This document shows positions 6,710 to 11,608 of a stretch of DNA of 39,611 nucleotides, in pieces. The stretch is from NCBI GenBank assembly GCA_902766765.1, contig CACXER010000042.1:1-39611 (forward strand). Direction: 5' to 3'. Origin of the DNA: an uncultured Elusimicrobium sp. (GTDB lineage: Bacteria > Elusimicrobiota > Elusimicrobia > Elusimicrobiales > Elusimicrobiaceae). How positions within the stretch are numbered: the stretch's first letter is position 1; every line of letters starts with the position of its first letter. The notes beneath the pieces were generated by a model. It saw only the letters and a program-made list of their open reading frames with translations, was not told the origin of the DNA and searched no databases. The translations under genes were made by a program, and so were the position numbers.

Positions 6710-6755
6710 ATAAATTACTTGCGTCCGGTAAGTCCGCAGGGGTGGCGTGAAATCG

Positions 6756-6761
6756 TATAAT
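6756..6761 (+). promoter_or_regulatory. -10 box of znuA
   Basis: Perfect TATAAT, 9 nt before ATG 6771. Transcription would begin within about 1-3 nt of the start codon. No clear -35. No recognisable Zur/Fur palindrome could be identified with confidence. Confidence 0.4.
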
Positions 6762-6770
6762 ATATATAAG

Positions 6771-7652
6771 ATGAAAAAGAGCATTTTAATTTTATTGGTT
6801 ATTATGGTGTTGGCGGCAGTTTGTCTAATCCGTTTTTCCGCTAAAAAATCCGCTGTTCCGTCGGCAGTAGTAACGTCGGGATATGTGCCGTACACGCTGG
6901 TTAAACAAATCGGCGGAGGACTACTCCCTGTGGAAATGTTACTCCCGCCGGGGGCCGAACCGCATAGTTTTGAACCGTCGCCGGGCAGTATGGTAGCCGT
7001 ACATAACGCGCGCGCATTTGTATACGTGTCCGACGCATTGGAGCCGTGGGCCAAAGACGTGTTGGGTGCAGTTGGAAAAAAGACGCGGGTAGTGAATTTA
7101 AGCCAAGCGGTGGCTCCGTCGCAAGACCCGCATGTGTGGATGGATTTTGGGGCGGTGGTAGATATGGCGCGCGCGCTGGAAAAAGCGCTTAGCGAAATGG
7201 ACCCGGAGAATGCCTCTAGTTATGAGAAAAATCTAAAACAATTTGAACAAGAAGTGGCCGTGTTGGATATGGATTTTGCGCGCGCTTTATCTTCGTGTGA
7301 AAGCCGCGAGGTGGTGCATATCGGGCATTTGGCCTTTGGCGCACTTGCCAAGCGGTATCATTTGTCGCTAATGGCGCTGGCGGGTACGTCACACGATGGA
7401 GAACACTCTGCACAAAAACTCATTGATTTAACCAAGCACATCCGCGCCAAACATATTCAATCGTTATTTACCGAAGAAGCCGTTTCGCCGCGGCTTGCTC
7501 AAACGGTGGCGGCGGAAACGGGTGCACAAATTTTTCCGCTCTACACCATAGAAGATATTTCCAAAGACGATTTTTCAAACGGTGTTACGTACGCGCAACT
7601 CATGCGCCGCAATCTGGATAGTTTACAACAGGGACTTGTATGCAAGAAATAA
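6771..7652 (+). CDS. znuA: Zinc/manganese ABC transporter substrate-binding protein
   Basis: A 293-residue cluster A-I metal-binding protein with an uncleaved or cleavable N-terminal hydrophobic segment (residues 4-22). Metal-ligand histidines appear in the usual places: AEPHSFEPS, DPHVWMD and HIGHLAFGALAKRYHL. The FTEEAVSP segment then supplies the typical acidic C-lobe region, and the end TYAQLMRRNLDSL is family-typical. It captures Zn2+ (or Mn2+) in the periplasm and hands it to ZnuB. An in-frame GTG at 6747 lies eight codons upstream behind a GGGG run. I prefer ATG 6771 because it begins a normal signal sequence and because TATAAT lies between the two. The gene overlaps znuC by 13 nt. Confidence 0.88.
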   Translation: MKKSILILLVIMVLAAVCLIRFSAKKSAVPSAVVTSGYVPYTLVKQIGGGLLPVEMLLPPGAEPHSFEPSPGSMVAVHNARAFVYVSDALEPWAKDVLGAVGKKTRVVNLSQAVAPSQDPHVWMDFGAVVDMARALEKALSEMDPENASSYEKNLKQFEQEVAVLDMDFARALSSCESREVVHIGHLAFGALAKRYHLSLMALAGTSHDGEHSAQKLIDLTKHIRAKHIQSLFTEEAVSPRLAQTVAAETGAQIFPLYTIEDISKDDFSNGVTYAQLMRRNLDSLQQGLVCKK

Positions 7653-8431
7653 TCCGCGCCGAAAATATCACATTTGCCTATACGCGTGTGCCGGTATTGG
7701 AAAACATTTCTTTTACCGTGCACGCAGGGGATTATATCGGACTTATCGGTCCCAACGGTGGCGGAAAAACGACCTTATTAAAAGTACTGCTCGGTTTGCA
7801 AAAAGGGAAAGGGGAAATTTCGCTTTTCGGTACGCCACTGGCCAAATTTACCGGGTGGAATAAAATCGGTTACTTGGCGCAAAAAAGTCCGGTGGCACAG
7901 AGTCGCTTTCCGATTGGGGCCGAGGAAGTGGTTTTAATGGGGCTTCCCGGGCGCGGGGCCGGCGTCAGCCGCAACGAATTAAAAGAAGTATACGAAGCCA
8001 TGCAACAAACCCGCACACGCAAATATGCCGGGCGGCTGTTTAACGATTTGTCTATCGGACAACAACAACGCGTTTTGCTGGCGCGCGCGTTAGTCAGTAA
8101 GCCGCAACTTTTAATTTTGGATGAACCGTCCACCGCTTTAGATGCCCAGTCACGCGAGATGTTTTTTGATTTACTCGGCGAACTCAATACCAAACATCAT
8201 ACCACGATTTTGCTAATTACCCATGATACGGGCGAAGTGGGAAAATATATTTCCAAATTTATGTATGTGGATAAATCGCTGGTGTTTTTTGGTACGAAGG
8301 AAGAATTTTGCCATTCCGCAGCGGTAGCCCAAAAACTAGGGCCCTTTGCCCAACATACCATTGACCATTTGCACAATACCCACGGGCATTGCCCACTCGG
8401 GGCGTCGTGTAAGGAGTGTCACCATGATTGA
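7640..8431 (+). CDS. znuC: Zinc/manganese ABC transporter ATP-binding protein with His/Cys-rich tail
   Basis: A 263-residue ATPase that powers metal import through ZnuB. Walker A is GPNGGGKT (37-44), Walker B LLILDEPS, the D-loop TALD, and the H-loop histidine is in LLITHD. The ABC signature reads LSIGQ instead of LSGGQ. The last 25 residues are unusual: seven His and three Cys, including a GHCPLGASCKECHHD end, which looks like a metal-binding tail and favours zinc as substrate. Overlaps of 13 nt with znuA and 8 nt with znuB show a tightly coupled operon. Confidence 0.92.
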   Translation: MQEIIRAENITFAYTRVPVLENISFTVHAGDYIGLIGPNGGGKTTLLKVLLGLQKGKGEISLFGTPLAKFTGWNKIGYLAQKSPVAQSRFPIGAEEVVLMGLPGRGAGVSRNELKEVYEAMQQTRTRKYAGRLFNDLSIGQQQRVLLARALVSKPQLLILDEPSTALDAQSREMFFDLLGELNTKHHTTILLITHDTGEVGKYISKFMYVDKSLVFFGTKEEFCHSAAVAQKLGPFAQHTIDHLHNTHGHCPLGASCKECHHD

Positions 8432-9233
8432 GTTTTTAAGTTACGGCTTTGTCCAACGGGGGCTCTTGGCGGGCAGTTTGGTGGCGGCGTCTTGTGCCTT
8501 GCTCGGAGTGTTTTTAGTACTCAAACGCTTATCTTTAATCGGCGACGGCATGAGTCATGTGTGTTTAACGGGGGTGGCGGTGGCGCTGCTGACGTCCACC
8601 AGCCCGGTGTATATGTCTATCCCGGTTGTGATGGCGGCGTCGCTGGTCATTATGAAACTGACGCAAAAATTCAAGATTTACGGTGATGCGGCTATCGGCA
8701 TTGTCAGTGCGGCGGGACTATCTATTGGGTTATTGATTACGGCACTTGCCGGCGGATTTAATACCGATTTACTCGGCTATTTATTTGGCAGTATTTTGAC
8801 GGTCACACCGGGTGAAACCGTATTGTGCGGTGTTTTGCTGGCCGTGGTGGCCGGAGGAATTGGGATGTTTTACCGTCTACTTGTAGCGACGTGTTTTGAT
8901 GAATCGTTTGCCCATACACGCGGCGTGCCGACGCAGATGGTAAATACCGCGCTCGTGCTTGTTACGTCCGTGGCAGTGGTGTTGTCATTTAAGGTGGTGG
9001 GTATATTTTTAATTTCCGCTTTGATCATTATTCCGCCCGTCAGCGCGCTGCTCGTTTCGCGCACGTTTAAGCAAGTGTTGTGGCTGGCGGCCTCGTTTGG
9101 CGTAGCAAGCGTGTGGTTGGGCGTATATGGTTCGTTTGTGTTAAATATCCCATCGGGTGCAGCGATTATTTTAGTCAATTTAATTTGCTTATTTGCATGC
9201 TATGTTTGGAGTAGAGGAGTGAGCCGTGGTTAA
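8424..9233 (+). CDS. znuB: Zinc/manganese ABC transporter permease
   Basis: A 269-residue ABC-3 family permease with about eight membrane helices. The N-terminal FVQRGLLAGSLVAASCALLG and the following LKRLSLIGDGMSHV are hallmark sequences of ZnuB/MntB permeases; the latter belongs to the region that contacts the ATPase. The open frame extends upstream to 8346, but ATG 8424 has AAGGAG 8 nt upstream and gives the family-typical N-terminus. It overlaps znuC by 8 nt and nth by 8 nt. Confidence 0.92.
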   Translation: MIEFLSYGFVQRGLLAGSLVAASCALLGVFLVLKRLSLIGDGMSHVCLTGVAVALLTSTSPVYMSIPVVMAASLVIMKLTQKFKIYGDAAIGIVSAAGLSIGLLITALAGGFNTDLLGYLFGSILTVTPGETVLCGVLLAVVAGGIGMFYRLLVATCFDESFAHTRGVPTQMVNTALVLVTSVAVVLSFKVVGIFLISALIIIPPVSALLVSRTFKQVLWLAASFGVASVWLGVYGSFVLNIPSGAAIILVNLICLFACYVWSRGVSRG

Positions 9234-9873: not shown

Positions 9874-9876
9874 AAA

Positions 9877-9904
9877 ACTATCTCCCAACACATCGGGAGA
9901 TAGT
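9877..9904 (-). terminator. Rho-independent terminator of the 9940-10923 gene
   Basis: A 10-bp stem ACTATCTCCC / GGGAGATAGT with an 8-nt loop. On the minus strand it is followed by six T. On the plus strand no T-tract follows, so it serves the leftward gene mainly. Confidence 0.85.
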
Positions 9905-9939
9905 CTGTAAAGAGCCGGTCAACTCGGCGAGTAATCAAG

Positions 9940-10923
9940 CTATAAGGCAAGCGGGTCATCAACAAGTAGGGCAAAGTAGGGTTTCTTCTCCGCTTCCTGG
10001 ATAAAGATGACATAGCGGCCATCAAAATCGAAGTGACGAGAACGAACAATCCCGCGTGACGTGCCCATTATGGCTTCCGCCACCAACCTGACGCCTTCTC
10101 TATCCATCTTGAATTGTATGTGTTCCAGCGCCTTTGAGATCATACCTCCATTTTGGAGCCGGAGCCCTTGCAATTCGCTGAATTCCCGTTCTGTTTCAAT
10201 ATTTAATTTAGGCGCCTTAAATGTGTCTGCGGCTCCCAGGGGGGCTTCTCTCCCGGTTGACATTTTAGCCAACATCCGCTGGTACAGTTCCTCCAATGTC
10301 CCGGTTGCGTTCGTGCGGTACAAGTAAATCTCATCATTTTGTTTGGACCGCAAGCGAACGGCAAATTCTCCCGGGGAGTAGAAAAGCGGTTTAACCGACT
10401 CTTTCTGTTCCTTCGTTACCGCTCCGAAATATTCTATTTGGGAGCCTTGGGGGCCAAAAGAATCCTCTTCCACATCATTAAAGGCAGTCATGAACTCAAA
10501 ATCTTTCTTCAACATGACATAAAACAGCGTACCGGAGGAATCCCATTGCATTTTATCCAACACCTGGCTTTCTTCGTTGAATTTTTCCAGGATATCTTTT
10601 TCCATTTCGCGTTTTAGTGCAGGTGTATTGCGCCCTTGTTTTGCGTAATACGATTCCTCGGACAAGTCCTGTTTAGTAAAGCCTTTTTTGTTCAAATCAT
10701 ATACTATGGGTGGGAATTCGCCCAAAGGTTGCGCAGGCCCTCCGAGTTCTTTCATAAAATCGTTCCAGAGCAACTGGAAAGCTCCTACCCAAATCTGGTT
10801 AGCAGCATCAGAGCGGCTGGACATCGTTGGCAAGACGTCTAGCGCCTGTTTGTCTTGGGCGCAAAGAGGAATAAGTAAGCCCGTTATAAGGACGGCTGAT
10901 AAGCCAATTTTTCGCAAATTCAT
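9940..10923 (-). CDS. Exported protein, possibly a divergent serpin-fold protein
   Basis: A 327-residue protein with a signal peptide (residues 1-21, cleavage after LCA). The start at 10923 is set by AAAGGAG 7-8 nt upstream; the frame extends to 10962 without support. No family is certain. The C-terminal third resembles serpins in order and spacing: PKLNIETEREFSELQGL (helix/strand before the breach), QFKMDREGVRLVAEA (strand 5A and reactive-loop hinge), 26 residues from the hinge Gly to DGRYVIF, then YVIFIQEAEKKPYFALLVDDP, matching the serpin end F-x-F-x(12)-P-x-F-x-G-x-V-x-x-P. A GTLEELYQRM segment fits the strand-helix region before it. The hinge lacks the Thr and small residues of inhibitory serpins, so protease inhibition is doubtful. 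It is a single-gene unit with its own promoter and terminator. Confidence 0.55.
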   Translation of the reverse strand: MNLRKIGLSAVLITGLLIPLCAQDKQALDVLPTMSSRSDAANQIWVGAFQLLWNDFMKELGGPAQPLGEFPPIVYDLNKKGFTKQDLSEESYYAKQGRNTPALKREMEKDILEKFNEESQVLDKMQWDSSGTLFYVMLKKDFEFMTAFNDVEEDSFGPQGSQIEYFGAVTKEQKESVKPLFYSPGEFAVRLRSKQNDEIYLYRTNATGTLEELYQRMLAKMSTGREAPLGAADTFKAPKLNIETEREFSELQGLRLQNGGMISKALEHIQFKMDREGVRLVAEAIMGTSRGIVRSRHFDFDGRYVIFIQEAEKKPYFALLVDDPLAL

Positions 10924-10962
10924 AATATTCTCCTTTACTACATGACATTTTCCGGTGATCAT

Positions 10963-10990
10963 AGTATAAGAGTTTTCCGCAAAAAATCAA
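10963..10990 (-). promoter_or_regulatory. Promoter of the serpin-like gene
   Basis: Minus strand: -35 TTGATT (10985-10990), 16-nt spacer, -10 TATACT (10963-10968). The predicted start is near 10956, leaving a leader of about 33 nt that contains the AAAGGAG site. Confidence 0.6.
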
Positions 10991-11071: not shown

Positions 11072-11608
11072 TTAATTCAGCGTATAGGCGTACACGGAGT
11101 GATAATCTCCCAAGTACGTTCCTTTCATGATTTGGCTGCAATACGCCCCTTGTGATTTTCCAAAGTTTGTGCCGCCCGTTTTACGTTCCATGCACAAAAT
11201 TTGTTGTTGCGGCAGATGGTAATAATTATCGGCGGTATAATAAGCAAAGCCGGCCCCTTTGTAAGGCCCGTTAATAAGACCCATGTATATACCCGATGCA
11301 TGTAATTGCAAGGACCACTCATTATTGGCCCGCGTATCTGTGATGACCTCATCGTTATACCATTTGGTTGTGCCGGTCCAGCCGTTTACTTCCAGGGGTA
11401 ACTCGTCAAACGAGGCCGGCATGGCTCCGTTGGCCAGCAAATAAGTGTCTGCCGCTTGCCCTAAGGATTTGAGCAGCGTAAGGGCTTGTGCGGAATGGGC
11501 TTTAGCGACCGCTTTTTGATACTGCGGGAGTGCCACCGCCGCTAAAATACCGATGATAAGCACGACAACTAAAAGTTCAATCAAAGTAAATGCTTGTTTG
11601 TTTTTCAT
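11072..11608 (-). CDS. Type IV pilin-like protein (prepilin, 178 aa)
   Basis: The short charged leader MKNKQA precedes [18 protein letters not shown], the class III signal cut by prepilin peptidase before Phe, with Glu5 of the mature protein conserved. Such proteins assemble through the N-terminal helix into type IV pili or type II secretion pseudopili. After ALPQYQKAVAKA the sequence is unique, with two Cys near the C-terminus. The start has AAAGGAG. It stands alone, with no pilus-assembly gene nearby, between unrelated genes. Its promoter/leader element is nearly identical to that of the pilin at 37783-38307. Confidence 0.92.
   Translation of the reverse strand: MKNKQAFTLIELLVVVLIIGILAAVALPQYQKAVAKAHSAQALTLLKSLGQAADTYLLANGAMPASFDELPLEVNGWTGTTKWYNDEVITDTRANNEWSLQLHASGIYMGLINGPYKGAGFAYYTADNYYHLPQQQILCMERKTGGTNFGKSQGAYCSQIMKGTYLGDYHSVYAYTLN

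Follow-up and report, generated by a model that had tools for sequence, protein, structure and literature searches.

Cleaved and latent serpins reach a relaxed state after cleavage or after a slow change from a strained native form, and in latent PAI-1 the loop is built in as strand 4A. In native ovalbumin, the loop stays uninserted. Bacterial serpins are described, in the passages of PMC8233489 considered here, as sparsely spread, enigmatic in role and disputed in origin. The same passages report that hormone-binding globulins use the stressed-to-relaxed change for ligands, that almost all hub-like prokaryotic serpins retain the hinge consensus ExGTEAAAA, and that the divergent Streptomyces group U serpins are suspected to be non-inhibitory, many of them having a consensus hinge and significant BLAST homology to other serpins. 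Elusimicrobia are mentioned once in the main text of that article, among the hub serpins; these are probably the ordinary PF00079 serpins that we found in the phylum.

The window, a stretch of 39,611 nucleotides from an uncultured Elusimicrobium sp. of the gut (genome assembly of 1.36 Mb in 102 contigs), carries on its minus strand a gene whose product is probably a trimmed, exported and non-inhibitory serpin locked in a relaxed, latent-like state, serving as a static envelope protein and not as a protease trap. The open reading frame is real, with an ATG at 10923 and a stop codon at 9940–9942; an alternative in-frame ATG at 10962 would give a protein of 340 residues. The features of the gene are as follows, residue n beginning at position 10923 − 3(n − 1).

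9940–10923, minus strand: gene of the serpin-fold protein, 327 amino acids, from the reading frame.
10930–10936, minus strand (reads 10936–10930): ribosome-binding site AAAGGAG, read directly from the sequence, 6 bases 5′ of the ATG at 10923.
10858–10923, minus strand: putative signal peptide, approximately residues 1–22, by inspection; C21 stands without a lipobox.
10744–10800, minus strand: s6B and helix B, residues 42–60, in the model; most conserved stretch of the family, names suggested by order.
10630–10650, minus strand: strand read as s1A, residues 92–98, in the model; tentatively assigned by order and by the 2-residue gap to the next helix.
10579–10623, minus strand: helix read as helix F, residues 101–115, in the model; near helix F in the low-confidence full-length profile alignment.
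10492–10530, minus strand: strand read as s3A, residues 132–144, from the model and the low-confidence profile alignment; K139 and K140 invariant in alignment A2.
10105–10143, minus strand: strand s5A, residues 261–273, from the model and hhalign to true serpins.
10060–10095, minus strand: hinge from P15 to P4, residues 277–288, predicted inserted strand s4A, from the model, the ends of the VIA-align alignments and the alternating pattern in 82 rows.
10015–10059, minus strand: variable post-hinge loop, residues 289–303, with no strand predicted (no s1C), from the model and entropy.
9961–10014, minus strand: closing strands s4B and s5B, residues 304–321, from the model and profile alignment.
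9875–9906, minus strand: likely terminator directly 3′ of the gene, with a T run behind a strong hairpin (RNA folding energy −19.4 kcal/mol, z −6.5).

The terminator hairpin at 9875–9906 is absent from the list of the consensus terminator scan, and a promoter-like site at 10990–10963 was set aside as being at chance level (1 found, 2.2 expected). By inspection, some relatives of the protein carry a lipobox or a long linker (L060, L109 and L164), and in L164 and L165 some 200 residues with a high content of Pro, Ala, Glu and Val link the signal segment to the serpin-like domain. The convergent neighbour encodes an HhH-GPD (endonuclease III-like) domain; positions 6747–9233 of the plus strand hold a zinc-uptake-type ABC operon (ZnuA, ATPase and ABC-3 permease) and then this gene. 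On the other side, a pilin-like gene with an N-methylation motif (11072–11608, minus strand) lies 148 bases upstream, and similar-looking pilin starts were seen by inspection within about 6 kb of the serpin-like gene in L051, L100 and L104. In the Elusimicrobium relative L051 (6984–9937), two exported proteins are encoded after the serpin-like gene, and by inspection their opening motifs resemble those of metallophosphatases.

The fold was predicted from the 76-row alignment A2, giving a model with a mean pLDDT of 89.9 and a pTM of 0.80; the ten-residue blocks 271–280 and 281–290, which span the hinge, reach pLDDT 97 and 94. A single-sequence model was dropped (pLDDT 38). All 50 listed VIA-align matches to the 76-row model are serpins, with Z 14.8–16.0, r.m.s.d. 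3.3–4.1 Å and 8–14% identity over 234–247 residues. Serpins thus head the matches over lengths just under the 250 residues that the preliminary description had named as support. All 50 listed Foldseek matches in the PDB are also serpins, with low TM-scores (0.40–0.51) and, in many, a large r.m.s.d. In a viral structure library at E ≤ 0.001, the seven matches comprise five named as serpin or serine proteinase inhibitor, one M152R and one named as sine oculis-binding protein. Structural match and profile homology together support a serpin fold and membership of the superfamily, in agreement with the serpin-fold reading first proposed from the sequence.

Sequence searches alone give a fainter picture. 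At E ≤ 1, nothing in Pfam, NCBIfam or the PDB matches the window protein, and phmmer gives no serpin; the protein therefore fails the curated whole-protein cut-off of Pfam Serpin PF00079 (27 bits). Within the family, PF00079 is nevertheless the Pfam family matched by most members: 4 of 14 match it at E ≤ 1 in the smaller set, and 22 of 76 at E ≤ 0.1 in the larger (best E 1.7e-5), the remaining 54 having no match at that threshold. No NCBIfam serpin model matched any of the 76 members at E ≤ 0.1. A PDB profile search with the 14-row alignment A1 returned mostly serpins, all of them weak (best E 0.076), and with the 76 rows of A2 no serpin was found. Aligned by hhalign with true Elusimicrobiota serpins (10 rows aligned out of 20 loci fetched from the phylum), A1 scores a probability of 90.5 (E 1.4e-6), A2 42.6 (E 2.6e-4) and the two combined, at 89 rows, 65.9; the similarity covers the C-terminal half of the family, and the full-length 89-row alignment is of low confidence, serving for orientation only. 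Those failures of the single sequence and of the profiles are what a convergent or mispredicted fold without serpin kinship would have in its favour. Set against the lead of PF00079, the A1 probability and the uniformly serpin fold matches, such a reading is close to refuted, and we give it almost no credence.

Ordinary Elusimicrobiota serpins belong to the same superfamily and share this C-terminal-half profile similarity, but those above the cut-off match PF00079 at E < 1e-85. Judged by the published description (PMC8233489, in the passages considered here), the prokaryotic serpin groups S, T and U can be likened to the family as members of the same superfamily; unlike many of the group U serpins, the family lacks the consensus hinge, and the window protein lacks a phmmer serpin match.

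The last third of the protein has the serpin-like layout noticed at the outset, with all of the named motifs present: QFKMDREGVRLVAEA occupies residues 270–284 and PYFALLVDDP residues 315–324. G277 lies 24 residues from D301, the first residue of DGRYVIF, and 26 from R303, the residue aligned with the serpin s4B Pro. This stretch is conserved beyond chance, being common to the 75 relatives aligned in A2, with G277, A284, P315 and Y316 invariant there.

What sets the protein apart is the hinge. In the model, strands 261–273 and 277–288 are consecutive around Gly277, which aligns with P15, and the 50 listed VIA-align alignments, 23 of them to entries with ‘cleaved’ in the title, stop at model residues 287–291, residues 292–327 falling outside them. 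VIA-align pairs model residue 291 with residue 358 of 1ezx and residue 352 of 1jti (only first and last aligned residues being given), which we take to be the P1 residues of those structures. Through this pairing, residues 277–291 would occupy the place of the inserted loop in cleaved serpins. The hinge is thus predicted to be already inserted in sheet A as strand 4A. Compared with cleaved and latent serpins (the thermophilic bacterial serpin 1mtp, cleaved antichymotrypsin and latent PAI-1), the family is alike in fold and, by prediction, in having the hinge as strand 4A; it differs in its low identity (8–14%), in the apparent absence of helices A, D, E and I and strand 2A, and in that the relaxed state would be its first and only state.

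The sequences of 82 distinct relatives are consistent with such a strand. P15 is Gly and P8 is Ala in all 82; charged residues stand at P13, P11 and P9 in 90%, 91% and 96% of rows, and hydrophobic residues at P14 in 93% and at P12, P8 and P6 in 100%. Ser or Ala fills P10 in 81 of the 82 rows; at P12 only Leu, Ile, Val and Met occur, and at P9 only Glu and Tyr. Scored for alternation, the segment from P14 ranks second of 284 positions, the first beginning at 269, in the last part of strand 5A. We infer from the P14–P6 pattern a permanent strand and not a loop needing both exposure and insertion. Three qualities of the pattern weigh against this: an amphipathic strand pattern alone does not prove where the strand lies; a distant branch (3 of 82 rows) departs from it, P9 being Tyr and P13 either Ile or Val; and the window's own hinge is less regular, with Val at P11. 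Both Elusimicrobiota (f21) and the order of genome G345 contain the Tyr-at-P9 branch (L160, L010 and L011), which also occurs as neighbouring copies.

The same hinge lacks the features of an inhibitor. Across P17–P9, where inhibitory serpins have ExGTEAAAA, the window reads REGVRLVAE and agrees at 2 of 8 defined positions, and the complete motif occurs in none of the 82 rows; the true serpins of the phylum have TEAAAAT from P14 in 10 of 10 rows aligned. The preliminary description had called the hinge non-inhibitory for want of the Thr (P14 is Val) and of a run of small residues, and a hinge of non-inhibitory kind is common to the whole family. Beyond that description, the prediction places the hinge inside sheet A, which is more than an inability to insert.

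Conservation is concentrated in three stretches. The twelve lowest-entropy 10-residue windows all begin in 44–49, 132–135 or 275–277, that is, in s6B and helix B, in s3A and in the hinge, which are the parts that pack around a loop once it is inserted. The hinge window at 277 ranks 12 of 288 by this measure. Over the variable post-hinge residues 287–297 the mean entropy is 2.23 bits, the median being 1.49. K139 in s3A and E283 in s4A are invariant in A2, and a covariation analysis of s3A with s4A was dropped because these two residues do not vary.

An alternative is that the protein resembles ovalbumin, which, like the hormone-binding globulins, shares with the family a serpin fold without inhibition: the loop would be exposed in reality and the inserted strand a bias of the predictor. 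The loop state is indeed a prediction, from a predictor that may prefer the relaxed form; many of the library matches are cleaved chains, the single-sequence model was of no use, so that the fold rests on one 76-row alignment, and the post-hinge stretch varies as ordinary reactive loops do. An exposed loop would leave unexplained, however, why P12, P8 and P6 are hydrophobic in every relative with charges between them, and why the hinge is among the most conserved stretches; lacking s2A, the sheet would also probably be one strand short. We regard this arrangement as unlikely, though as the most serious of the alternatives. Also to be held against the locked, relaxed state are the low Foldseek TM-scores, the 76-row profile that found no PDB serpin and the 54 members without a PF00079 match.

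The protein appears trimmed relative to ordinary serpins. From N42 (s6B) to the helix-F anchor there are 65 residues in the window and 63–67 in the family, against 103–106 in true serpins, and from P238 to G277 39 residues in the window and 38–46 in the family, against 55–56. In place of the helices C, D and E and the strands 2A and 1A of serpins, the model lists a single short helix and a single strand, and it has no helix over 247–261, the expected place of helix I. By element order, the model's list contains no obvious counterpart of helices A, D, E and I or of s2A and s1C. From order and spacing, the loss of helices A, D, E and I and strand 2A seems likely; what is left would be assigned to helix F, s1A and s3A, these assignments drawing also on the low-confidence alignment.

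In the favoured reading, then, the protein would go directly to the relaxed, latent-like state on folding. What is the reactive-loop hinge in ordinary serpins would here be a permanent fourth strand of sheet A, and strand 2A would apparently have been lost, so that sheet A keeps the usual five strands. Since the protein would then neither store strain nor expose a bait loop, it could not trap proteases in the serpin manner. The product would most likely be a stable, protease-resistant envelope module, putatively binding a partner through its surface or through the variable loop, which would sit at the pole occupied by P1 in cleaved serpins; the low confidence of loop residues 291–300 (mean pLDDT 62) makes the return path of this loop uncertain. 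Of all this, the family, its residue pattern and, by inspection, the signal peptide are shown, the fold and the state of the loop are predicted, and the lost elements, the absence of inhibition and the static binding role are inferred.

The family extends well beyond the window. The window protein alone found no homologue in the 40 other genomes drawn at the first search, nor in a first scan of genome contigs. Across 340 genomes of the phylum, strong relatives occur in 13, counting the window's own genome, and occupy 15 places, all with E no higher than 7.4e-15; L013, one of the 15, is truncated by the end of its contig. This search gave matches at E ≤ 1 in 34 genomes, 21 of them with only E ≥ 0.0059, and five frames from those 21 (L014, L015, L016, L025 and L029) look unrelated by inspection and were set aside. 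A profile search of 334 genomes recovered the same 13 and three partial matches at E ≤ 0.01 (G096, G285 and G093). The protein of the same-genus genome G075 (L002) is the same as that in L051, from an uncultured Elusimicrobium sp.

With a 14-row profile, a scan of genome contigs gave at least 585 stretches matching the pattern, 346 of which encode a relative. Among the best 80 of these 346 loci, which were kept, the titles name Gastranaerophilales, Gastranaerophilus or Melainabacteria in 44, Elusimicrobium or Elusimicrobia(ceae) in 8, Cyanobacteria in 4, ‘bacterium’ in 20 and others in 4. From the order to which G345, the genome of L064, belongs, 241 genomes were drawn; 196 of these carry a match, single in 186 of the 196, and among 117 genomes of the order the family exceeds the PF00079 cut-off in 1 (28.6 bits). 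We call this order of gut bacteria Gastranaerophilales because it includes G360 (L122, Candidatus Gastranaerophilus phascolarctosicola), a naming that carries no statement of kinship among the genomes. The family is common in an order of another phylum, a point beyond the preliminary description. The early expectation that such a protein would be unusual in its own lineage calls for one qualification: serpins are not rare in the phylum, PF00079 being above cut-off in 23 of 101 relatives searched, all 23 from another family of the order. Among the genomes drawn from its own genus none passed, with one weak match (G006, E 0.039).

In a tree of 82 rows, the window and six other Elusimicrobiaceae-type rows group together as 7 rows (97/89) within a clade of 26 (100/100), whose members include rows titled Gastranaerophilales, Cyanobacteria and unnamed bacteria. 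Three further Elusimicrobiaceae rows lie elsewhere in the 26-row clade and five other Elusimicrobiota rows outside it (100/100). The window sits on a long branch (1.42) and deviates in composition, and the tree is arbitrarily rooted; for these reasons it gives no direction of transfer. A close resemblance of L160, a locus in the order of G345, to the Elusimicrobiota loci L010 and L011 makes another cross-phylum link, suggesting a second transfer between phyla. Matches to plasmids or phages, which would point to a mobile origin, were absent for the window protein at 1e-5.

Gene neighbourhoods bear on a further alternative, in which the protein is a working inhibitor or protease sensor with an odd hinge, its loop exposed at first and inserting on cleavage or partner binding, perhaps reporting to an adjacent BlaI-like regulator. 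Its loop length is like that of working serpins: from G277 to Y304 there are 27 residues in the window and 27–35 in the family, against 28–31 in ten true serpins. In 38 of the 79 loci with at least 900 bases upstream, a BlaI-like gene (by Pfam PF03965 in four of the 38) and a gene of about 130 residues and no known identity lie on the same strand directly before the serpin-like gene, in the same gene run; the second is separated from it by at most 28 bases and overlaps it in 14 of the 38. Examples are L064 (5206–6993), L119 (5272–7041) and L120 (5228–7020), with 35 further loci, and a gene read from its domains as RadA occurs in 42 of the 79. None of the BlaI-like, 130-residue and RadA neighbours is found in the 9 Elusimicrobiaceae loci counted, the window included (L100 has too little upstream DNA to tell), and the inhibitory motif is nowhere complete, so that an inhibitor or sensor seems to us a long shot.

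With about as little confidence, the family can be imagined to have kept or regained the serpin fold without metastability, with a five-stranded sheet, the hinge as an ordinary strand and 2A absent. If it branched before the inhibitory serpins, it would show the role of the serpin fold before the spring-loaded trap. As most of the genomes sampled from the order of G345 carry it, the family would on this view have a basic envelope task there.

Literature on Elusimicrobia, Gastranaerophilales, Melainabacteria, the gut, latent or s4A serpins and non-inhibitory bacterial serpins yielded, mostly at the level of abstracts, no description of the family. Bacterial serpins are described as sparsely spread; here, most of the genomes sampled from one order carry a serpin-fold family. 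The strained state is the defining mark of working serpins, and this family seems to have given it up. With a natural serpin that is never strained, the costs and the gains of loop insertion and of strand 2A could be tested cleanly.
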